From NCBI GenBank assembly GCA_945868085.1, contig CAMBKF010000014.1:1-46871 (forward strand): a stretch of DNA of 46,871 nucleotides. Reading direction: 5' to 3'. The stretch comes from an uncultured Oscillibacter sp. (GTDB lineage: Bacteria > Bacillota > Clostridia > Oscillospirales > Oscillospiraceae). Made by a program: the position numbers and the translations under genes. Position 1 is the stretch's first letter; each line of letters opens with the position of its first letter. A model generated the notes under the pieces. It was not told the DNA's origin. It was given only the letters and a program-made list of their open reading frames with translations, and did no database searches. Below, piece by piece: positions 37,254-45,671 of this stretch.

Positions 37254-38360
37254 TCACAGATCCAGCTTCAGGTCGTCCTCTCCGATCCAGCCCCACTTGC
37301 GCAGAGGCAGGGCGATGAGCCAGCTCAGCACGGCGGGCAGCACGAAGCATACCAGCACCAGCCCGGCCCAGTCCATAGCGGTGATGGCGGCCTTGGTCCC
37401 GGCCTCTATGTCCGCCAGCCACCCGGTGTACACGCCGATCTGCCCCACCAGGCCGCAGGTGCCCATGCCGCTGGATACAGCCGCGCCGTTCATCTCCATG
37501 TGGAAAATGCAGGTGGCGATAGGCCCCGTAATGGCGGAGGCCAGGGTGGGGGGGATCCAGATCCGGGGATTGCGGACGATGTTGCCCATCTGCAGCATGC
37601 TGGTGCCCAGCCCCTGGGCCGCCAGGCCGCCCCAGCGGTTTTCCCGGAAGCTCATGACCGCGAAGCCTACCATCTGGGCGCAGCAGCCCGCCACGGCCGC
37701 GCCGCCTGCCAGACCCGTCAGCCCCAGCGCGGCGCAGATGGCGGCAGAGGAAATGGGCAGCGTCAGGGCGATGCCGATGACCACGGACACGATGATGCCC
37801 ATGAAGAAGGGCTGCAGCTCCGTGGCCCACATGATGGCCTTGCCCACAGCGCTGGCGGCGGTGCCGATGGGTGCGGCAATAAGGGCCGCGGCCCCGATGC
37901 CGCAGAGAATGGTGACGATGGGCGTCACCAGGATGTCGATTTTCGTCTCCTTGCTCACAGCTTTACCGATCTCGGATGCGATGATGGCCACGAACAGCAC
38001 GGCCAGGGGCCCGCCGGCCCCGCCCATGGCGTTGGTGGCAAAGCCCACCGGGATCAGGGAAAACAGCACCATGGGCGGCGCGTTCAGCGCCCGACCGATG
38101 GCCACCGCCATGCCCGGGCCCACCATGGCCGAGCACAGGCCGCCGATGGTGTAGCCCACCGCGCCGTCGCCCTTGCCCAGGGTGACGATGATGTCCGTCA
38201 GGAATCCGATGTGCAGCTGGGTGCCCAGGGTGTTTAGGATCGTACCCACCAGCAGCGTGCAGAACAGGCCCTGGGCCATGGCGCTCATGGCATCGATGAA
38301 GTAGCGTTTCGGAGAGAAGACAATGTCCTTGCGCCGCAGGAAAGCGGATATTTTTTCCAT
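37254..38360 (-). CDS. EIIC_2/PfoR-like membrane permease, candidate niacin-regulon transporter
   Basis: The 368 residues form about ten hydrophobic helices. The sequence (AMAQGLFCTLLVGTILNTLG, GPGMAVAIGRALNAPPMVLF, FHMEMNGAAVSSGMGTCGLV) matches the PTS_EIIC_2 type of membrane proteins, related to PfoR. No EIIA or EIIB partners and no phosphorylation motifs are present, so it is probably a permease rather than a working phosphotransferase unit. GAGGTG lies before the ATG at 38360. The promoter region contains a NiaR-box-like palindrome and the niaR gene lies directly upstream, so a nicotinate or nicotinamide-related substrate is a reasonable inference. Confidence 0.75.
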   Translation of the reverse strand: MEKISAFLRRKDIVFSPKRYFIDAMSAMAQGLFCTLLVGTILNTLGTQLHIGFLTDIIVTLGKGDGAVGYTIGGLCSAMVGPGMAVAIGRALNAPPMVLFSLIPVGFATNAMGGAGGPLAVLFVAIIASEIGKAVSKETKIDILVTPIVTILCGIGAAALIAAPIGTAASAVGKAIMWATELQPFFMGIIVSVVIGIALTLPISSAAICAALGLTGLAGGAAVAGCCAQMVGFAVMSFRENRWGGLAAQGLGTSMLQMGNIVRNPRIWIPPTLASAITGPIATCIFHMEMNGAAVSSGMGTCGLVGQIGVYTGWLADIEAGTKAAITAMDWAGLVLVCFVLPAVLSWLIALPLRKWGWIGEDDLKLDL

Positions 38361-38377
38361 AGTACACCTCAATAAAA

Positions 38378-38442
38378 AATGGAGTAGTCAGATGTCATGA
38401 CACCCAGCTACTCCATTATATCCTATTTACAGAATTTGTCAA
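38378..38442 (-). promoter_or_regulatory. promoter, NiaR box and terminator-like hairpin, all overlapping
   Basis: On the minus strand TTGACA (38442-38437) contains the niaR stop codon; with 16 bp and TATAAT (38420-38415) it forms a strong promoter. GATGTCATGACACC (38391-38404) contains the perfect palindrome TGTCATGACA, the core of known NiaR sites. AATGGAGTAG (38378-38387) pairs with CTACTCCATT (38408-38417), and on the minus strand a T6 run follows, as in a terminator for niaR. Confidence 0.7.
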
Positions 38443-38948
38443 TCCTCCAGCAGCATTCCTTTTTCCCGCAGGGTGGCGCACACCCGCTCAAAGGCGTCCT
38501 CGTCCGGCACGGACAGCCGGTGGGCGTGGATGCCGTCCGTCAGCAGGCTCAGGGGCTGGGCGGCGTTTTCCAGCATTCTCCGCACGAACTCGTCCACATC
38601 CCGGCGGCAGGAGAGCTGCAGCGGCGCGGTGATCTCCCCGTAGACCGGGTGCTCCACCGTCACGTCCAGCACGGTGCAGCCGCCGTCCACCATCACATAT
38701 AGTTCCTCCTGGGTCTGGCCGGGGGTGTGCTGGCACACCACCTGGCGCATCGCGCCCTCCTCCGGTGGGATCACATAGCCCCGCGAGGTGGCCACCACCT
38801 GTGTGCCGCTGGCTCGAAGCAGGGCCACATCGCCAACGATGATCTGTCGGCTCACGCCCAGAAGCTTAGCCAACGTGGTGGCGCTGACAGGGGTGCTTTC
38901 ATCCCGCAGATGGGACAAAATTGCTTTCTGGCGTTCCTTTGTCGTCAT
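38439..38948 (-). CDS. niaR: niacin-responsive repressor NiaR (HTH_11 and 3H domain)
   Basis: NiaR represses NAD precursor synthesis and uptake genes when niacin is bound. The 169 residues have an N-terminal helix-turn-helix (MTTKERQKAILSHLRDESTP, then VSATTLAKLLGVSRQIIVGD) and a C-terminal 3H domain. The three family histidines appear as His74 (CQHTPG), His100 (VEHPVYGE) and the His141/His143 pair (GIHAHRL), which bind metal. A palindrome like the NiaR box lies just downstream, in front of the EIIC-like gene, and the start codon itself overlaps TCATGA, a possible weak autoregulatory site. Confidence 0.93.
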   Translation of the reverse strand: MTTKERQKAILSHLRDESTPVSATTLAKLLGVSRQIIVGDVALLRASGTQVVATSRGYVIPPEEGAMRQVVCQHTPGQTQEELYVMVDGGCTVLDVTVEHPVYGEITAPLQLSCRRDVDEFVRRMLENAAQPLSLLTDGIHAHRLSVPDEDAFERVCATLREKGMLLED

Positions 38949-39020: not shown

Positions 39021-39050
39021 AAAAAATGGCGGAAAAATTATCCAGCCGCC
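39021..39050 (-). terminator. terminator ending the ECF operon
   Basis: On the minus strand GGCGG (39050-39046) and CCGCC (39032-39028) enclose a loop that includes the stop codon of the last EcfT gene, followed by A and T7. Confidence 0.6.
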
Positions 39051-39922
39051 TGCCGCAGCTGCCGGAACCGGTACGCGCCTATGAGCTCAAGCGCCGGGGG
39101 CAGCAGGCAAAATGCCGCCCAGGCCGCATAGAACAGGAAGGACATGGGCGTGATAGGCATCATCACTACCTGGGGCGCGAAGCGGATCATGGTCTGGTCC
39201 AGCAGCACCGCCATCAGCAGCACGCTCATGAGCGCGCACAGCCCGATGACGAAGGTCCTGTCCCGCCCGTCGAAGCGGTACAGGGAGTAGGCGGTGCGTC
39301 CCCGGAGGGAGCAGCCCCGGCAGCGCATGGAGTCGGCGGTGGTCACGATGCCCTCCGTGAGCCAGGTGAGCAGGATGCTCCCCCGGCGCAGGGTGTTGCG
39401 CATCCGGCGGAAGATGTTCCCCTGGCTCTTGCCCCGGCCGATGCCCCGCTGGGCCAGCTCAATGCGCTTTCGCTGTGCGTTCAGCCGGGGTACCGTCCGC
39501 AGCAGGATGGATAAGTACAGGCTCAGGTGCGGGGACACCCGGCCCAGAAGATATACGATCTTGTCGGTGGTGAACACGGCGTGTACGCAGCCCAGCCACA
39601 GGACTGCTGTCACGCACACCATGGCCCAGGTCCCGCCGCAGAGGAAGGACTCCAGGGTCACCTGGTTGCCGATGAAATTCATCCCCAGCACCGTGATGCC
39701 GAAGTGGTGGTATGACCCGTACCACAGGGCAAACAGCAGCGCAAAGGGCAGCAGCCCCAGCCCCGGAATCAGGGCCCGGAGCCCCCGGAGCTTCAGCAGA
39801 TACAAAAACGCGCACCCATAGCTGAGAGCCAGGTAAACCGGCTGGCGGAAAAGGATGGTGCCCGCCAGCACCGCCGCGAAATATAGAAAGTTGATGGCCG
39901 GATGATAGCGTGAAAATTCCAT
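39038..39922 (-). CDS. ECF transporter T component (second copy in the operon)
   Basis: This 294-residue membrane protein of the CbiQ/EcfT family links the S subunit to the ATPases. It starts MEFSRYHPAINFLYFAAVLA, has four or more helices, and carries the coupling segment VTTADSMRCRGCSLRGRTAY that contacts the ATPase dimer. Its stop lies inside a terminator hairpin, so it is the last gene of the operon. It resembles the other EcfT (42295-43188) in start (HPAINFL versus HPAVNFL) and in the ADSMRCRG motif, so the two look like an old duplication. Confidence 0.88.
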   Translation of the reverse strand: MEFSRYHPAINFLYFAAVLAGTILFRQPVYLALSYGCAFLYLLKLRGLRALIPGLGLLPFALLFALWYGSYHHFGITVLGMNFIGNQVTLESFLCGGTWAMVCVTAVLWLGCVHAVFTTDKIVYLLGRVSPHLSLYLSILLRTVPRLNAQRKRIELAQRGIGRGKSQGNIFRRMRNTLRRGSILLTWLTEGIVTTADSMRCRGCSLRGRTAYSLYRFDGRDRTFVIGLCALMSVLLMAVLLDQTMIRFAPQVVMMPITPMSFLFYAAWAAFCLLPPALELIGAYRFRQLRQAAG

Positions 39923-39926
39923 GGCG

Positions 39927-40652
39927 TCAGGGCTCCATCATGCCGTACTTGATCTGGATGCGCTGCAGCCGCTCCAGCAGGGGCCTCCCGAACAGCAGCA
40001 TGGTCAGGGCCACCGCCGCCCCGTGTACGCAGTTCACCGGCACGCCCGCCAGGTAAACCGCCAGCACCGAGGAGGTGTCATAGCTGGTGGCCACAGTGAA
40101 GAAGGTGGAGGTGTCCAGCAGCGGGCCCACAATGAGCAATATGGCAAAAAATCCGAACACTGTCAGAATGATGACGTCCTTCCAGCCCTTGGGGGCCTTT
40201 TTCAGAATCCCCCACATGGCAAACAGGCCCGCCAGCAGTCCGCCGATGCCGTAGGCGAACATCTGCCACGGGGTCCAGGGCCCCTGGCCGAAGATGAAGT
40301 TGCTGGCAAAGCCGCTGATGGCCCCGCACAGAAAGCCCGCCTCCGGCCCGAAGGCGATGCCCGTGAGCATGACAATGGCCAGCATGGGCTTGAAGTGGGG
40401 CACGGCGGCAAAGGCGGCCCGGCTGGCCACCGCCAGGGCGCACAGCACCGCCAGGATCACCAGCTCCCTTGCCTGGGGCTTCCGGCTCTCAAAGTGCAGG
40501 AAGAAGGCAGCCGTGGTCAGCACGATGATGGCCAGCCCCGCCAGGTAGTATTTCCGGTCGAAGCGGGAGAAGACAAGCACCGTCAGCGGCACCAGCACCA
40601 GCAGGATCACAAGGCTCAGCCAAAAGCGCCAGGAAGATTTTTTCGTGTTCAT
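39927..40652 (-). CDS. ECF transporter S component, predicted corrinoid-type
   Basis: This 241-residue membrane protein has about seven helices. Two come first, then the S-component core LVILAVLCALAVASRAAFAA, MLAIVMLTGIAFGPEAGFLC, GAISGFASNFIFGQGPWTPW. The F-G-Q-G-P-W-T-P-W-Q stretch is shared with S components assigned to cobalamin-type cargo in clostridia; I recall this from family members and cannot test it here. Its start overlaps the ATPase stop by four bases, and the last EcfT follows four bases after its stop. The corrinoid prediction rests on the riboswitch-like leader and the DUF4430 protein at the head of the operon. Confidence 0.75.
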   Translation of the reverse strand: MNTKKSSWRFWLSLVILLVLVPLTVLVFSRFDRKYYLAGLAIIVLTTAAFFLHFESRKPQARELVILAVLCALAVASRAAFAAVPHFKPMLAIVMLTGIAFGPEAGFLCGAISGFASNFIFGQGPWTPWQMFAYGIGGLLAGLFAMWGILKKAPKGWKDVIILTVFGFFAILLIVGPLLDTSTFFTVATSYDTSSVLAVYLAGVPVNCVHGAAVALTMLLFGRPLLERLQRIQIKYGMMEP

Positions 40653-42322
40653 GTCAACTGATTCTCCTTCATCAGGGCCACCACATCCTCCGCCGTCACC
40701 GCCTGGGGAAACAGGTGCCGGCTCATGCGGTTGGCTGCGGTGGTGTAGAAGCTGTTTTGGGCAAAGAAGCGCCGGGGGGTGTTGGTGGTGAGCAGCTGTC
40801 CGTCAAAGAACATGGACACGCTGTCTGCGTATTCCGCGCAGAACTCCACGTCGTGGCTCACCATAACGATGGTCACGCCCTCCTCCGTCATCAGCCGGTG
40901 CAGCAGCCCCGCCAGCTGGCGCTTGAAGAAGCTGTCCAGGCCCTTGGTGGGCTCGTCCAGCAGCAGCAGTTTCGGCTCCGTCAGCAGCACCTTGGCCAGG
41001 GCGGAGCGCTGCTGCTCGCCGCCGGACAGGTCATAGGGATGGTGGTCTAAAAGCGCCGTAATGTCGCAGAGCTTCGCCATATCCTCGATGCGCCGGTCCT
41101 TGTCCGGGCAGGAGGCGGGGAGCATCTCCTCCAGGTCCTCCCGCACGGTCTTCTTCACAAACAGGCACTGGGGATCCTGGGGCAGCATAGCTAATTTCCC
41201 GTGGAACAGGTCCTTGCATTTGGCGGTGTCCTGGCCGTCCACGCGCACCTTGCCCCGGTAGGGCCTGCAGATGCCGCAGATGGCCTTGAGGGTGGTGGAT
41301 TTGCCCGTTCCGTTGCCGCCTACGATGGAAAACAGCGTCCCCTTGGGCACCCGGAAGCTGACACCCTTGAGGATGTCCGGGCTGTCCTTTTCGTAGCGGA
41401 ACCAAATTTCTTTTACCTCCAGGGCCGGGTCCCGGATCTCCTCCGGAAATTCCGGCTGGGGGGGCAGGGTGTCGCGCAGCTTTTTGCCGGCGGCCTTTTC
41501 CGTCAGCCAGCTGCGGCCCTCCCGCACCGTCAGGGGAGAGGCGGCGCCGCTCTCGCCCGCACCGTAGAAAATGCGCACCGGGGCGGGCATGGCGGTGAAC
41601 ATATCGCTCTTTTGGGTGTAGAGGAGCTGGCCCACCTTCTTGGGCTCGTCATCGGCCAGAATGCGGCCGTTTTCCATGACCACGCAGCGGTCGGCGGCGT
41701 GGAAGATGTCCTCCAGCCGGTGCTCGGTGATGAGCACCGTGGTGCCCAGCTCCCGATTGATCTTTTTCACCGTGTTGAGAAAGTCCGAGGCGGCGATGGG
41801 GTCCAGCTGGCTGGTGGGCTCGTCCAGGATCAGCACCTTCGGCTGCATGGCCATGATGGAGGCCAGGTTCAAAAGCTGCTTCTGCCCGCCGGACAGCTCC
41901 GCCACATCCCGGTGGAACCACCCCTGTATGCCGAAATAGCTGGCCATTTCCGCCACCCGCAGGCGCATGGTTTTCTGGTCGCAGCCCAGGCTCTCCAGGC
42001 CGAAGGCCAGCTCGTGCCACACCTTGTCCGTGACGATCTGACTGTCCGGATTCTGCATGACGAAGCCGATCTCCGACGACTGCCTGCGCAGGTCCGCCTG
42101 GTCCAGGGGCGCACCGTCGTAGAGAATGGACCCCTCCCGGTTTCCGTGGGGGGTGAGTACGGTTTTCAGGTGCCGCAGGAGGGTAGTCTTGCCGCTGCCG
42201 GACTTGCCGCACAGGGCGATGTATTCCCCCTGCTCCACCTGCAGAGAAACCTCCCGCAGGGAGGGATGCTCCGGGTCCGTGGGGTAGGAAAAGGTCAGAT
42301 TTTCGATCGCAAACTGTGCCAT
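40649..42322 (-). CDS. ECF transporter double ATPase (EcfA-EcfA fusion)
   Basis: The 557 residues contain two ABC ATPase domains in one chain. Domain 1 has Walker A GKSGSGKTT (39-47), signature LSGGQKQ (143-149) and Walker B VLILDEPT. Domain 2 has Walker A GGNGTGKST (335-343), signature LSGGEQQR and Walker B LLLLDEPT. Most ECF modules encode two separate proteins, EcfA1 and EcfA2; fused forms serve dedicated transporters. The gene overlaps the upstream EcfT stop by 28 bases and the downstream S component start by four, so translation is tightly coupled. GGGAGG lies before the ATG. Confidence 0.95.
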   Translation of the reverse strand: MAQFAIENLTFSYPTDPEHPSLREVSLQVEQGEYIALCGKSGSGKTTLLRHLKTVLTPHGNREGSILYDGAPLDQADLRRQSSEIGFVMQNPDSQIVTDKVWHELAFGLESLGCDQKTMRLRVAEMASYFGIQGWFHRDVAELSGGQKQLLNLASIMAMQPKVLILDEPTSQLDPIAASDFLNTVKKINRELGTTVLITEHRLEDIFHAADRCVVMENGRILADDEPKKVGQLLYTQKSDMFTAMPAPVRIFYGAGESGAASPLTVREGRSWLTEKAAGKKLRDTLPPQPEFPEEIRDPALEVKEIWFRYEKDSPDILKGVSFRVPKGTLFSIVGGNGTGKSTTLKAICGICRPYRGKVRVDGQDTAKCKDLFHGKLAMLPQDPQCLFVKKTVREDLEEMLPASCPDKDRRIEDMAKLCDITALLDHHPYDLSGGEQQRSALAKVLLTEPKLLLLDEPTKGLDSFFKRQLAGLLHRLMTEEGVTIVMVSHDVEFCAEYADSVSMFFDGQLLTTNTPRRFFAQNSFYTTAANRMSRHLFPQAVTAEDVVALMKENQLT

Positions 42323-43188
42323 AGTATAGCCTCCCGAATGGAATAAAAGGTGGGGATCAGTAACAGTGCGGCGTAAGCCGCCAGACCCAGGATGGGCCGG
42401 AACCCGGCAACCTCCGCAACGGATACTGCCGGAATGAACGCCGCCCGGGCGCTGCCGCCGGCGGCCGCATAGATGGCGGCGGCCAGGGTCACGGCAATGA
42501 GGGCCGTAATGAACCGGTCCCGCCCGGTAAAGCGGTAAATTTGAAAGCTGGTGCGCTTGCCCGGGGCTCCGTAACCCCGGCAGCGCATGGAGTCAGCGGT
42601 GACGACGCTGCCCTCCAGAGCCCAGCCGGACAGCGCCATAAGCACGTCCATGCCGCCCTGGATCTTCTCTTTTCGCGTCCCGGCGCCGCTGCGCCCGATG
42701 CACTTGCGCGCCCCGGCGATCTGCTTCCCCTTGCGCCAGTAGCCGGGGATCAGCCGCAGTACCATCACCAGCACCAGGGAAATGGCGGGGATCACCGCGC
42801 CGAAGAGGCTTGTAAACTTGTCGGAGGTCATAACGATGCCGCCGCACAGGAACCACAGGCTCACCGCCGCGAACATCATCCCCGCGCAGCCGCCGTAGCA
42901 CAGGGCCTGCCAGGTGTAGGGCCGACCAAACAGGGTAAAGAGCGTGGTCTCGCCCAGGGTGTTGAACAGCGGATTCACCGCCGCCACCAGCACCATGGCT
43001 ATAAGCAGGAAGCCGAAGGTCCTGCCGCAGCGCGCCCGGCGCAGCACGGCGTAGTATGCACCCCCGCACAGAAGGGAGACCAGCAGGTACGCCGGGTGAA
43101 ACAGCACCACCGTCAGCACGATGGCCGCCGCGAAGAACAGGAAATTCACCGCCGGGTGGCAGCGGGAAAAAACGTCATAGTCCTGCAT
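42295..43188 (-). CDS. ECF transporter T component (first copy)
   Basis: This 297-residue EcfT/CbiQ-type membrane protein starts MQDYDVFSRCHPAVNFLFFA. It carries AGARKCIGRSGAGTRKEKIQ and the coupling segment VVTADSMRCRGYGAPGKRTS. The start at 43188 has GAAAGGAGG nine bases upstream; an earlier in-frame ATG at 43278 lies inside the preceding gene. It comes second in the operon, 32 bp after the DUF4430 gene and overlapping the double ATPase gene. Two EcfT genes around one ATPase and one S gene is unusual. Confidence 0.9.
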   Translation of the reverse strand: MQDYDVFSRCHPAVNFLFFAAAIVLTVVLFHPAYLLVSLLCGGAYYAVLRRARCGRTFGFLLIAMVLVAAVNPLFNTLGETTLFTLFGRPYTWQALCYGGCAGMMFAAVSLWFLCGGIVMTSDKFTSLFGAVIPAISLVLVMVLRLIPGYWRKGKQIAGARKCIGRSGAGTRKEKIQGGMDVLMALSGWALEGSVVTADSMRCRGYGAPGKRTSFQIYRFTGRDRFITALIAVTLAAAIYAAAGGSARAAFIPAVSVAEVAGFRPILGLAAYAALLLIPTFYSIREAILWHSLRSKI

Positions 43189-43220
43189 GGTCCTCGCCTC
43201 CTTTCTGCGTGTCGTATCGG

Positions 43221-44561
43221 TCAGCCCATGCTGGGTGCGCCCACATCGGTGCCCAGTCCCTTGCAGGTGTAGCACCATACGATGGTGTCGCCGTCCTCCA
43301 ACTTATAGCTGGAGCAGCCGTAGTTGGGGAACCAGCCGTTCACCTTGTACATCCAGCCGGACTGCTGCCCGCAGTCGAATTCATACAGGTGGTTGATGCC
43401 CTCGATGTAGTAGCTGCCGTACAGGGGGGTATAGCTGTATTCGATCTGGATCTTCCGCTCGTCGCAGATCCGCTTCAGCACGTCGAACACGGTCTCGCCG
43501 GCGGAGAAGGAAACGGTGGTGGTGGCGAGGATGGTGCCGCTGTCGGGCACATAGACGTCCAGCCCCGGTGTCAGATCCTTCATGTTGTTCAGGATCGTGT
43601 CGCAGCGGATTTCAATGGTACACGTCGGCCCTGCCGGCTCGGGCGTATCGGGCTTGTCCGGTGTAACGGGCGTATCCGGCGTGTCGGGCGTATCCGGTGT
43701 ATCGGGCTTGCTGGGGGTGCTGGGGGTGCTGGGGGTACTGGGAGTGCTGGGAGTGCTGGGCGTGCTGGGCGTATCCGGCTTGCCGGGCTTGTCGGAGGTA
43801 TTGGGCTTGTCCGGCGTGCCGGGCACGTTGGGCGTATCAGGCGTATCGGTCGCATCCGGGGTCTCTGGATTTTCGGGCCGGATGACCTCCGTCGGCACAT
43901 TCCGGCTGTCCAGTACGGCCTGCACCGCATCTGCCGAGCAGAACATACTCCCCTCGCAGCCCAGAATGCAGTCCAGGGCAAAGGAGCTCAGGGCCTGCAG
44001 GTCCATGTCCTGCACGGAGAGCTCCTGGCCCACATAACAGCCGGTTTTCCCGGCGGTGAAGGTGTTCTCCCCGTCGCTGACGGTCCCGCCCAGCACATAC
44101 ATGGTCTCGGACCCCGTGCGCACGGTACACACCAGCACAGCGTTTTGCAGCGTGGCGCTGTGATCGCCGTACTGCAGCTCCACGGGGGCGTCCGCCGCCT
44201 GGCAGAAGGCCTCGCCCGTCACCAGGCGCACCTGCGCCTCCTCGGCCGAAACGATTTCCAGCTGGCTCCCCTGGGAGAGCATCAGGCTGCAGGTGTCCAC
44301 GTCCACCGCCACATACCCGCTGGTCACGGACACCACATCGCCCTGGCGCAGCTGCACCTGGCCCTTGAGCTCCGAGGCGATGCCGCCGCGCTCCAAATTG
44401 GCCAGGCCCTTGCGCACCGTGGCGCTGATGGCCGTGGTCTCACCCGCCGGGCCGGCCTTGTCGAACCAGCCCAGATGCCGCCCGGCCAGGATAACGGCCA
44501 CCGCGGCGATGGCGGCGATGACAGCCACCATAATGATATTATAAACCGTCTTTTTTTTCAT
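43221..44561 (-). CDS. membrane-anchored FecR-like/TP-repeat/DUF4430 protein, candidate corrinoid-binding protein
   Basis: The 446 residues have four parts. MKKKTVYNIIMVAVIAAIAA begins a single N-terminal membrane anchor (about 7-26). Residues about 45-215 form a FecR-like beta domain (LKGQVQLRQGDVVSVTSGYV; LVTGEAFCQ; CTVRTGSETMYVLGGTVSDG). A linker of P-D-T-P and P-S-T-P repeats (about 229-309) follows. Residues 313-435 match DUF4430: TVSFSAGETVFDVLKRICDE, GINHLYEFDCGQQSGWMYKV, NGWFPNYGCSSYKLEDGDTI. This fold is shared with the C-terminal domain of intrinsic factor and transcobalamin, which bind cobalamin. The protein would sit outside the membrane. It heads the ECF operon behind a riboswitch-like leader. 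Substrate capture for the ECF importer is inferred. Confidence 0.85.
   Translation of the reverse strand: MKKKTVYNIIMVAVIAAIAAVAVILAGRHLGWFDKAGPAGETTAISATVRKGLANLERGGIASELKGQVQLRQGDVVSVTSGYVAVDVDTCSLMLSQGSQLEIVSAEEAQVRLVTGEAFCQAADAPVELQYGDHSATLQNAVLVCTVRTGSETMYVLGGTVSDGENTFTAGKTGCYVGQELSVQDMDLQALSSFALDCILGCEGSMFCSADAVQAVLDSRNVPTEVIRPENPETPDATDTPDTPNVPGTPDKPNTSDKPGKPDTPSTPSTPSTPSTPSTPSTPSKPDTPDTPDTPDTPVTPDKPDTPEPAGPTCTIEIRCDTILNNMKDLTPGLDVYVPDSGTILATTTVSFSAGETVFDVLKRICDERKIQIEYSYTPLYGSYYIEGINHLYEFDCGQQSGWMYKVNGWFPNYGCSSYKLEDGDTIVWCYTCKGLGTDVGAPSMG
43640..43870 (-). repeat. in-frame 9-bp and 6-bp tandem repeats coding the TP linker
   Basis: Between 43708 and 43780 near-identical 9-bp units (reverse of AGCACCCCC) code Pro-Ser-Thr six or more times. 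Flanking units code Pro-Asp-Thr and Pro-Asp-Lys. Their length is likely to vary between strains by slippage. Confidence 0.8.
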
Positions 44562-44580
44562 ATTTACCTCTCCGGGGCAG

Positions 44581-44602
44581 AAAAAAAGCCCCCATTGGGG
44601 GC
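44581..44602 (-). terminator. riboswitch expression platform: terminator
   Basis: On the minus strand GCCCCC-AAT-GGGGGC (44602-44588) runs into T7 (44587-44581), 20 bases before the DUF4430 start codon. TTGGGGG (44639-44633) upstream can pair with CCCCCAA (44601-44595) and break the terminator, giving an antiterminator switch. Confidence 0.85.
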
Positions 44603-44661
44603 ATAGTTGTTCCGTATCGGTCCTGCCGGCATCCCCCAAGAGCCAAAGACCGTCTGATTTG

Positions 44662-44792
44662 GGGAAAGTATTCCGGCTCCGGATGCCTGGTGCCGAACCC
44701 TTCTCGGGGTATCGCTGCCCCAATGGATTTGGCGGCGTAAATCCGTCTACGGCGGCTTGGTACCGCTGGGATGTGACCCATTCCGTTCCGCA
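44662..44792 (-). ncRNA. cobalamin-riboswitch-like leader
   Basis: The minus strand has, in order, GGAA (44789 region), the short stem GGGTCACATCCC (44779-44768), AGCGG, then AAGCCGCCGTAG (44759-44748). The last resembles the B12 box with its GCCACTG or GCCGCTG core. Next come a GC-rich arm with CGAGAAGG (near 44710-44700) and, finally, AGCCGGAATACTTTCC (44678-44663). That piece matches the conserved 3' part AGTCAGGATACCTGCC at 11 of 16 positions. Order and spacing fit the cobalamin aptamer, but several conserved bases differ, so it may be a divergent or variant class. A terminator and antiterminator follow. Confidence 0.55.
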
Positions 44793-44802
44793 AATCACAC
44801 AT

Positions 44803-44942
44803 AGTATACCATGCCGCGGAGCGGACTGGTATACTGCGGCCATATTTTTCGGTTCCCGGCGAGGCCGGGGAGAAAAATGGCATAAAATGAAAGTATAATG
44901 GCCGCTTGCGGCTATTATAACATATGCGTTTCCTCGGCGCAA
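44803..44942 (-). promoter_or_regulatory. promoter and long leader of the DUF4430-ECF operon
   Basis: On the minus strand TTGCGC (44942-44937), 17 bp, TATAAT (44919-44914) would give a leader of about 345 bases. It includes hairpins CCCGGC-CTC-GCCGGG (44869-44855) and a 9-bp stem AGTATACCA/TGGTATACT (44803-44835). TATACT in that stem is an alternative -10. The -35 lies directly after the stop of the upstream TVP38-like gene. Confidence 0.55.
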
Positions 44943-44945
44943 CCG

Positions 44946-45671
44946 TCAATCTTCGGGCTTTTTCCCGGGATGGTCATTTTTTTCATGGCGTTGGCAGACG
45001 CGGCGGTAGATGAGCAGCCCCACCAGGGATAAAAGCAGCGTTCCGCCGAAGACCAGGGCCGCAAACAGGTAGCTTCTGCCGCCCAGGGCGCTGCCGCCCA
45101 CGGTGGATGTCAGCACCGACGGCAGCCGACCCACGGAGCACAGCAGCAGCCAGGTGCCCCAGCTGACGTCCGTCAGCCCCGCGAAATAGCACAGCAGGTC
45201 CTTGGGCGTGCCCGGCACGGTGAATATCAGCCAAAACAGGTAGTTCCGCTTGGGGGAGTGCTTGAGAAAGTGCAGCTTTTCCAGCTTCTCCGGGGAGAAG
45301 AAGATCTCCGCCATAGGCTGGCCCAGTCTGCGCACCAGGGTGAACACGATGATGCTGCCCAAAAACAGGCCCAGCATGCACAAAATGCTGCCCCACACGC
45401 CGCCGAAGGCGTACCCGCCGCAGATCTCCAAAGGCTCTCCCGGGATGATGGCCACCACCACCTGCAGCATGCACATGCCCACATAGGCGGCCATGCCCCA
45501 CAGACCCAGGCTGTCCACCCACTGGCGGAACAGCTCCGGCTGCTTGGCAAACCGGATCATGGGCCGCCCCACGAACCAGCATACCGCCGCCGACAGCAGG
45601 ATAAACACCGCCAGCGCGCAGGCGGCGGCGATCTTCTTCTGCTTTTGGGTGAGGGTGGGCTTTTTAGGCAT
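44946..45671 (-). CDS. TVP38/TMEM64 (DedA-like) membrane protein
   Basis: This 241-residue membrane protein has about six hydrophobic segments. The SNARE-associated or VTT domain is seen in VVVAIIPGEPLEICGGYAFG, GSILCMLGLFLGSIIVFTLV, and FWLIFTVPGTPKDLLCYFAG. The I-P-G-E-P and F-x-x-P-G-T-P-K-D motifs are typical of TVP38/TMEM64 members, and related DedA-type proteins move lipid carriers across the membrane. AAGGAGA lies before the ATG at 45671. No terminator is visible before the ECF operon promoter, so some read-through is possible. The cargo is unknown. Confidence 0.88.
   Translation of the reverse strand: MPKKPTLTQKQKKIAAACALAVFILLSAAVCWFVGRPMIRFAKQPELFRQWVDSLGLWGMAAYVGMCMLQVVVAIIPGEPLEICGGYAFGGVWGSILCMLGLFLGSIIVFTLVRRLGQPMAEIFFSPEKLEKLHFLKHSPKRNYLFWLIFTVPGTPKDLLCYFAGLTDVSWGTWLLLCSVGRLPSVLTSTVGGSALGGRSYLFAALVFGGTLLLSLVGLLIYRRVCQRHEKNDHPGKKPED

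Follow-up and report, generated by a model that had tools for sequence, protein, structure and literature searches.

The 46,871-nucleotide stretch of DNA analysed here (hereafter the window) comes from an uncultured Oscillibacter sp. (contig 14 of a genome of 1.96 Mb and 84.5% completeness). On its minus strand it carries an operon, in which a structured RNA leader precedes the gene for a surface protein with a DUF4430 domain and the genes for an energy-coupling factor (ECF) transporter, that is very probably a corrinoid importer. Taken as a whole, the operon is likely to capture corrinoids (B12 and its relatives) at the cell surface and to import them. It is a well-supported example of a kind predicted in 2007, when Burroughs et al. 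proposed that transcobalamin-like proteins of Gram-positive bacteria, whose genes neighbour those of CbiO and CbiQ, serve to scavenge B12 or precursors of it (PMC1796856). The same idea of DUF4430/ECF scavenging had been put forward in an annotation previously made from the letters of the window (the first-pass annotation); the operon that it described was confirmed, and the novelty of the idea was lost to that earlier prediction.

The gene order on the minus strand and the overlaps described at first pass were borne out by the coordinates of the open reading frames (ORFs), which run from 44561 to 39038 (Table 1). The DUF4430 gene is separated by 32 nucleotides (nt) from the first EcfT gene, which overlaps the ATPase gene by 28 nt; the ATPase and S subunit genes share 4 nt, and the second EcfT gene follows after another 4 nt. 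Behind the DUF4430 gene, the complete ECF importer that had been claimed could be identified in all its parts (double ATPase, two EcfT proteins and S subunit). The double ATPase scored 367.6 bits with TIGR04520, the ECF ATPase model (cut-off 315), and matched PF00005 twice, and the S subunit scored 58.3 bits with PF07155 (cut-off 26.7). A Pfam scan of both window EcfT proteins gave no match; CbiQ was matched by 7 of 16 EcfT homologues, and a profile of these 16 sequences (alignment A11) found solved EcfT chains with an E-value of 1.2e-13. The EcfA pair, EcfT and S subunit that together mark an ECF transporter are all present in the window.

One indication of the substrate comes from the S subunit. 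Used alone, it found 6fnp_A first among solved chains (E 7.8e-7), and a profile of 46 S sequences reached the same chain with 66.9 bits (E 1.8e-17), followed by the riboflavin uptake protein 3p5n_A with 32.0 bits. 6FNP is ECF-CbrT and 6fnp_A its S subunit, and the window protein is, judged by sequence, an S subunit of the CbrT type with CbrT as its closest solved relative. A riboflavin or folate S subunit was rejected as the better match, both scoring far lower than CbrT in profile comparison. For ECF-CbrT of Lactobacillus delbrueckii, Santos et al. 2018 reported that CbrT transports cobalamin and cobinamide (PMC5997447). The window system resembles ECF-CbrT in its S subunit and in the presence of EcfT and EcfA. 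It differs in that there are two EcfT genes, the ATPases are fused, and the same operon includes a DUF4430 protein and a riboswitch.

Homologues of the S subunit were present in 64 of 150 same-family genomes, and neighbourhoods were taken for 40 of them (loci L036-L075). In this survey, of the kind proposed in the first-pass annotation, both DUF4430 genes and B12 riboswitches recurred beside the transporter: a strong DUF4430 ORF match was found in 34 of the 40 neighbourhoods, and matches to the cobalamin riboswitch family RF00174 in 18 (19 matches; 14 of the 18 above cut-off by a hand count). From 117 matches in the 41 genomes searched, 0.88 matches would be expected in the 40 neighbourhoods, so that the observed density is about 20-fold higher. 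A signal for another vitamin on homologous operons, named at first pass as a refuting result, was not seen in the loci examined. Together with the CobT, CobU, CobS and CbiR-like genes in homologous operons and the S subunit nearest to CbrT, the riboswitch density makes corrinoid import under a cobalamin-type switch, as claimed at first pass, well supported. In 32 of the same 40 loci, the S subunit and both ATPase domains form a single open frame of about 830-1200 residues, that is, a fused S-EcfA polypeptide.

The conserved RNA of the leader spans about 44797-44626 and is smaller than the leader proposed earlier (44600-44945). Its cobalamin type was recognised because relatives match RF00174, and through relatives only. 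Two of the 40 transporter neighbourhoods, L037 and L043, carry exactly the window's 23-base core; L037 matched RF00174 with 35.4 bits (cut-off 31.5; model positions 1-189), and L043 with 30.6 bits, slightly below the cut-off (positions 47-167). The window shares with these two, which cover RF00174 aptamer positions, the alignment and the covarying helices. The core common to the three was turned into an exact 17-mer pattern, and a search covering 84,980 species genomes yielded 61 loci besides the window. The titles of these loci, as far as they name a group, give Oscillospiraceae, Clostridia, Eubacteriales, Clostridiales or Bacillota; Faecousia and Anaeromassilibacillus are among them. Since the pattern demands an exact match, both the invariance of the 17-mer and the taxonomic limits follow in part from the search itself. 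Duplicates L146 and L156 were removed from leader and regulon counts (L156 is still within the 12 of 60 and 27 of 60 given below), and L160 was outside the Rfam scan of leader loci. RF00174 exceeded its gathering score in 12 of 60 family loci, weakly (33.0-40.7 bits), and the other 48 were unreported at gathering threshold with Rfam's filters; of the unreported, at least L148 has the leader of L037, which gets its 35.4 bits under laxer filters.

From these comparisons the leader is assigned to a diverged subtype of the cobalamin riboswitch. Its family has in common with RF00174 the core GGAA, P5, P6, an accessory CATTGG...GAGAAGG arm and a B12-box-like AGYCGGAATAC, with an L13-type hairpin and a terminator downstream, and it precedes B12 transport and salvage genes. 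By eye, it differs in having AAGCCGCCGUAGA for GCCACUGU, a shortened L5 and an L13 fixed as CTCTTGGGG. Two other RNA families were rejected: chrB-a RNA, the best Rfam family on the leader, reached 20.4 bits where 43.9 are needed for gathering, with a stretch that overlaps the cobalamin accessory arm, and the AdoCbl-variant RNA RF01689, listed as marine, had no match in the window, the leader or the leader loci.

The leaders make up a compact RNA family. A profile of 53 other leaders, with the window excluded, found the window leader at E 3.2e-30 (envelope 44798-44623) as the sole window match listed, and still at E 1.2e-29 with L108 excluded as well. Covariance model R2 gave the window leader, a member of its training set, 118.5 bits at 44623-44795; it scored the 56 leaders supplied at 97-170 bits and all other RNAs in the searched loci at 25 bits or less, and two leaders outside the training set, L115 and L149, obtained 123.3 and 97.5 bits, respectively. 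Models R1 and R2 were also run with stricter filters on 300 family, 345 order and 391 class genomes, of which 6 (one with no more than 23.9 bits), 2 and 20, respectively, gave matches; all class-genome matches except that of the window's own genome scored 26-46 bits. The motif CTCTTGGGG was present in 62 of 62 leaders (the window and 61 others), 115-131 nt past the core though outside the search pattern, and in none of 2739 control stretches from the same loci.

Covariation was assessed on a structure-blind MAFFT alignment of 54 leaders, with the structure taken from one member, L148 (alignment A5 omits six near-identical or long-insert leaders, namely L110, L115, L121, L149, L158 and L160). 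Two-sided pair changes occurred in 261 cells; shuffles gave 121.8 +- 9.7 and slid controls no more than 137, a comparison in which the structure, drawn from L148 alone, is favoured over its slid versions. Both-sided variation was found in the NGGAC/GTCCN helix, the accessory arm, P1 and the L13 stem, with the columns of P1 and P9 only 50-63% paired on the MAFFT alignment. Unaided, RNAalifold proposed that CCCA in the P5 3' strand pairs with UGGG in L13, a candidate L5-L13 kissing contact; that strand pairs 4/4 with its own 5' strand in 58 of 60 leaders and 4/4 with L13 TGGG in 59 of 60, two pairings that are mutually exclusive on paper.

A terminator and antiterminator had been reported in the leader at first pass and were found again: a hairpin at 44602-44588 is followed by a T run, and its 5' arm (CCCCCAA, 44601-44595) is complementary to TTGGGGG upstream (44639-44633; pairing read by hand). 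The stem of the L13-like hairpin in the window consists of GGC (44644-44642) and GCC (44630-44628). A terminator-like hairpin lies downstream in 58 of 60 leaders, by a permissive search that matched 195 of 533 random stretches as well; a score of at least 30 was reached by 54 of 60 leaders and by 33 of 533 random stretches. The 5' arms mostly resemble AGUCCCC, GCUCCC or GCCCCC, complementary to UUGGGG. Mean pairing energies between L13 and the terminator arm were -13.8 kcal/mol for a leader's own arm, -13.2 for crossed arms and -10.3 for upstream 24-mers. The own total was reached by 24 of 5000 permutations and own pairing beat the row mean in 30 of 58, a contrast of own and crossed pairing that is weak evidence, the effect being small because L13 is invariant. 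Leader and terminator have the anatomy of a transcriptional off-switch, and by analogy with known cobalamin riboswitches, in which a kissing loop has a role in switching (PMC9600662), the ligand would turn the operon off through L13.

The genes downstream of the family were counted for 50 distinct leaders, each followed by 1,000 nt or more of sequence. ECF genes followed 42 leaders and CbiR-like, CobT, CobU or CobS genes 17 (both, 13; cobamide genes only, 4; neither, 4), so that 46 were followed by ECF and/or cobamide genes. In three of the four with neither (L107, L108 and L126), the first gene is of DUF4430 type and truncated by the end of the contig, and in the fourth, L149, the first protein has at least 1,190 residues and no assignment. 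Among the 19 leaders with at least 5,000 nt downstream, a transporter was found in 16 and cobamide genes in 12. The order at L092 is DUF4430, EcfT, EcfA, S, EcfT, CbiR-like, CobT, CobS and CobU-like, and Pfam matches above cut-off were obtained for CobT, CobS and CobU in the operons of relatives. CbiR hydrolyses cobamides for remodelling, and one quarter of its homologues are reported to adjoin genes for putative transport proteins (PMC7733943). With 48 of 60 loci unreported at usual Rfam settings, the B12-salvage regulons of Oscillospiraceae and relatives are under-annotated.

Back to back with the leader, an RF00174 riboswitch occupies the opposite strand in 27 of the 60 loci scanned, or 26 of 59 once the duplicate L156 is set aside; 73-155 nt lie between its nearer end and the core of the leader. 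Of 28 first ORFs led by other cobalamin riboswitches, 25 were scanned (L141, L144 and L153 were omitted, the ORF looking spurious; L133 is not back-to-back, leaving 24), and 19 of the 25 matched DUF4430 at E<=0.001. Some of these riboswitch-led DUF4430 proteins also carry toroid, propeller or S-layer domains. No such partner was seen in the window, where Rfam finds nothing and the upstream neighbour is a same-strand VTT-domain gene. At L103, L113, L124, L138 and L150, the opposite-strand riboswitch has the form GGGGAAACAGGTG...GAGTCCGTCGCCGT (39-47 bits to RF00174) and precedes small secreted proteins, of which that of L103 matches DUF4430, with AAGGAG near the start codon.

The chances are about even that an ordinary cobalamin riboswitch has here drifted below the Rfam threshold in one bacterial family, its altered core having no functional meaning and its ligand being the classical one. 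That some members still exceed the RF00174 threshold, that classical riboswitches of the same loci share the CGGTACC and CATTGG...GAGAAGG stretches, and that the RNAs of 26-46 bits to the family model exist in other Clostridia-class genomes all fit such drift. Drift alone would not freeze the changed positions, however, and across 60 distinct leaders there is hardly any change in the short L5 or in the L13 loop, also beyond the 17-mer, while the helices vary; in addition, the cobalamin-type and diverged forms lie back to back in almost half of the loci. The newer part of this analysis is the subtype itself, whose altered core and loops are fixed, together with its regulon and its occurrence in pairs with other cobalamin riboswitches; no account of the leader-RNA subtype was found in the open-access papers searched.

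For a change of ligand among riboswitch variants, SAM-I provides a precedent (PMC10853860). We tentatively suggest, as an unlikely reading, that the leader subtype has a ligand preference of its own and senses the corrinoid tail by way of a short L5 and an L13 that are both fixed, distinguishing complete from incomplete corrinoids or one lower ligand from another. Import and remodelling (CbiR, CobT, CobU and CobS) would then answer to the kind of cobamide, and the opposite-strand riboswitch, answering to total cobalamin, would set the level of a second DUF4430 binder. Loci in which both forms stand back to back offer a natural experiment on the distinctions that corrinoid riboswitches make.

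The DUF4430 domain claimed for the surface protein was verified at residues 355-432 (PF14478, 75.7 bits against a cut-off of 23.8). The protein begins with a transmembrane-like anchor, followed by an unassigned domain and a Pro/Thr/Asp-rich linker at about residues 231-308; the long linker could plausibly serve as a wall-spanning stalk. The isolated beta domain of human transcobalamin binds cyanocobalamin and cobinamide in crystals (PMC5599065). The window protein resembles the SLBB proteins of Burroughs et al. in having a secreted or anchored domain of the transcobalamin C-terminal type, in an operon with a CbiO-like ATPase and a CbiQ-like membrane protein; it differs in lacking an alpha/alpha toroid of its own, and S subunit, riboswitch and remodelling genes go unmentioned in the available text of that paper (PMC1796856). 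Provided that DUF4430 binds, its role would be like that of BtuG of Bacteroidetes, which captures B12 at the surface and feeds an importer; BtuG is a beta-propeller working with the outer-membrane transporter BtuB, and the likeness is one of role (PMC6977713). A Pfam search for an alpha/alpha toroid in the window DUF4430 protein found none, and a comparison of the whole protein with the PDB was set aside, the matches being mainly to the low-complexity linker.

It is unlikely that DUF4430 is instead an adhesive or wall-organising module without corrinoid binding, leaving recognition of the substrate to S alone. Many leaders precede a transporter without a DUF4430 gene, the domain is likewise part of large surface proteins that contain cadherin-like, propeller, dockerin and S-layer domains, and the sequence search found no solved B12 binder. 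Against these stand the frequency of DUF4430 genes beside the S subunit, their prevalence among the genes led by the second cobalamin riboswitch, and the vertebrate B12 binders, which carry the same domain by name (PMC4350170). We infer that the DUF4430 protein binds the corrinoid and hands it over to S.

Several results weigh against corrinoid capture and import. The first-pass annotation had described motifs like those of a cobalamin riboswitch in the leader and proposed a covariance search as the check; the window copy gave no cobalamin match, neither at gathering threshold in the whole window nor at E<=10 on 44540-45000, so that the first of three results named beforehand as refuting was literally obtained for this copy. 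It is explained by the divergence of the subtype, and the riboswitch stood through the relatives that match RF00174. Transcobalamin was not found when a profile of 47 DUF4430 domains was compared with the PDB (best E 0.047). A DUF4430 ORF lies downstream in just 12 of 50 leaders (some contigs end early) and is therefore not obligatory for the transporter. The window operon itself has no Cob gene; in relatives, the CbiR-like matches reached 44 bits against an NCBIfam cut-off of 105, and the NCBIfam models for CobS and CobU were not passed either. A few terminators among the 58 appear spurious (for example, those of L103, L114 and L147). The gene after the operon is of a type associated with niacin regulation (HTH_11 plus 3H domain). 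Finally, corrinoid is a presumed ligand for the leader RNA, DUF4430 and S alike.

It is very improbable that riboflavin, folate or niacin is the vitamin transported and that the RNA responds to some other signal: Pfam names the S subunit 'ECF-ribofla_trS', folate-family and riboflavin models match it weakly and below cut-off, and a 3H-domain regulator gene follows the operon, but CbrT is the best solved relative of S by a wide margin, CobT, CobU and CobS occur in the operons of relatives, and the relatives of the RNA are RF00174.

For a corrinoid importer, the following course of events is proposed. When intracellular corrinoid is high, it would bind the RNA and the L13 segment would be held off the terminator arm; the terminator would then form and switch the operon off. 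At low corrinoid, TTGGGG would pair with the terminator arm and the operon would be on. Outside the cell, DUF4430, as a putative bacterial counterpart of the beta domain of transcobalamin and intrinsic factor, would bind the corrinoid and present it to S, and ATP hydrolysis by the fused ATPase would drive import through EcfT. Imported cobamides may then have their lower ligand replaced by CbiR, CobT, CobU and CobS, the Cob genes found in the window genome being on another contig. The B12-type switch, the transcobalamin-like surface protein, the CbrT-like importer and the remodelling genes co-occur in Oscillospiraceae of the gut and their relatives, so that the 2007 prediction can be put directly to the test.

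The Cob genes found in the window genome lie on contig 19, apart from the transporter operon, where CobT, CobU, CobS and a second CobU-like gene are encoded beside a DUF4430 protein. A B12-binding domain was found at one place, where the protein has a URO-D domain as well, as in corrinoid methyltransferases; a search for CbiD, which belongs to the de novo pathway, was negative in this incomplete genome. These observations fit a B12 user that must import. At L161:421-2700 (contig 32 of the window genome), a DUF2284 gene is followed by the gene for a URO-D protein with two B12-binding domain matches. An RF00174 match elsewhere in the window genome (G000:C26) was dismissed as weak (21.4 bits), the ORFs listed downstream not being convincing genes.

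DUF4430 occurs at five places in the window genome. On contig 19 (L098:9085-14766), the protein beside CobT/CobU/CobS has 1893 residues and combines DUF4430 with cadherin-like domains and a prenyltransferase toroid, the last a weak match (26.7 bits against a cut-off of 26.5); as predicted from these matches, it joins both halves of the two-domain plan of transcobalamin. At L036:3223-6141, genes for an S-layer-domain protein, a DUF4430 protein and a CbiR-like TIM-barrel protein stand in a row after a weak RF00174 match (20.0 bits). A split toroid suspected at L036 was not upheld: the N-terminal part of the first protein looks helical-repeat-like, but Pfam names no toroid there.

Table 1. Features of the operon and its leader in the window (positions of the whole stretch)
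Feature	Position	Strand	Basis
Extended -10-like promoter element (putative) TGGTATACT, directly before the RNA	44803..44811	-	by eye
Diverged cobalamin-type riboswitch	44626..44797	-	covariance model R2, left-one-out profile
P1, TGATTTG pairing with CAAATCA	44797-44791 with 44661-44655	-	
Core CGGTACCAAGCCGCCGT, P6 and following junction	44749..44765	-	alignments; served as search pattern
Loop motif CTCTTGGGG in L13-like hairpin	44634..44642	-	conserved motif
Intrinsic terminator GCCCCCAATGGGGGC plus T7	44581..44602	-	terminator search
DUF4430 protein, 446 residues	43221..44561	-	PF14478, 75.7 bits
EcfT-like membrane subunit 1, 297 residues	42295..43188	-	profile A11 against solved EcfT chains
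EcfA, two fused ATP-binding cassette (ABC) ATPase domains, 557 residues	40649..42322	-	TIGR04520, PF00005 twice
ECF S subunit, CbrT-like, 241 residues	39927..40652	-	PF07155, 6fnp_A
EcfT-like membrane subunit 2, 294 residues	39038..39922	-	in alignment A11

The element TGGTATACT may be an extended -10-like promoter element by its letters; a two-hexamer promoter scan did not flag it. Past the second EcfT gene, the HTH_11 plus 3H-domain regulator gene lies at a distance of 89 nt (38439-38948, minus strand), and a phosphotransferase system (PTS) EIIC_2 gene follows (37254-38369). Close to the riboswitch loci, malK-I RNA (RF03069) was found at L106:3802-3978 and L128:4579-4756.

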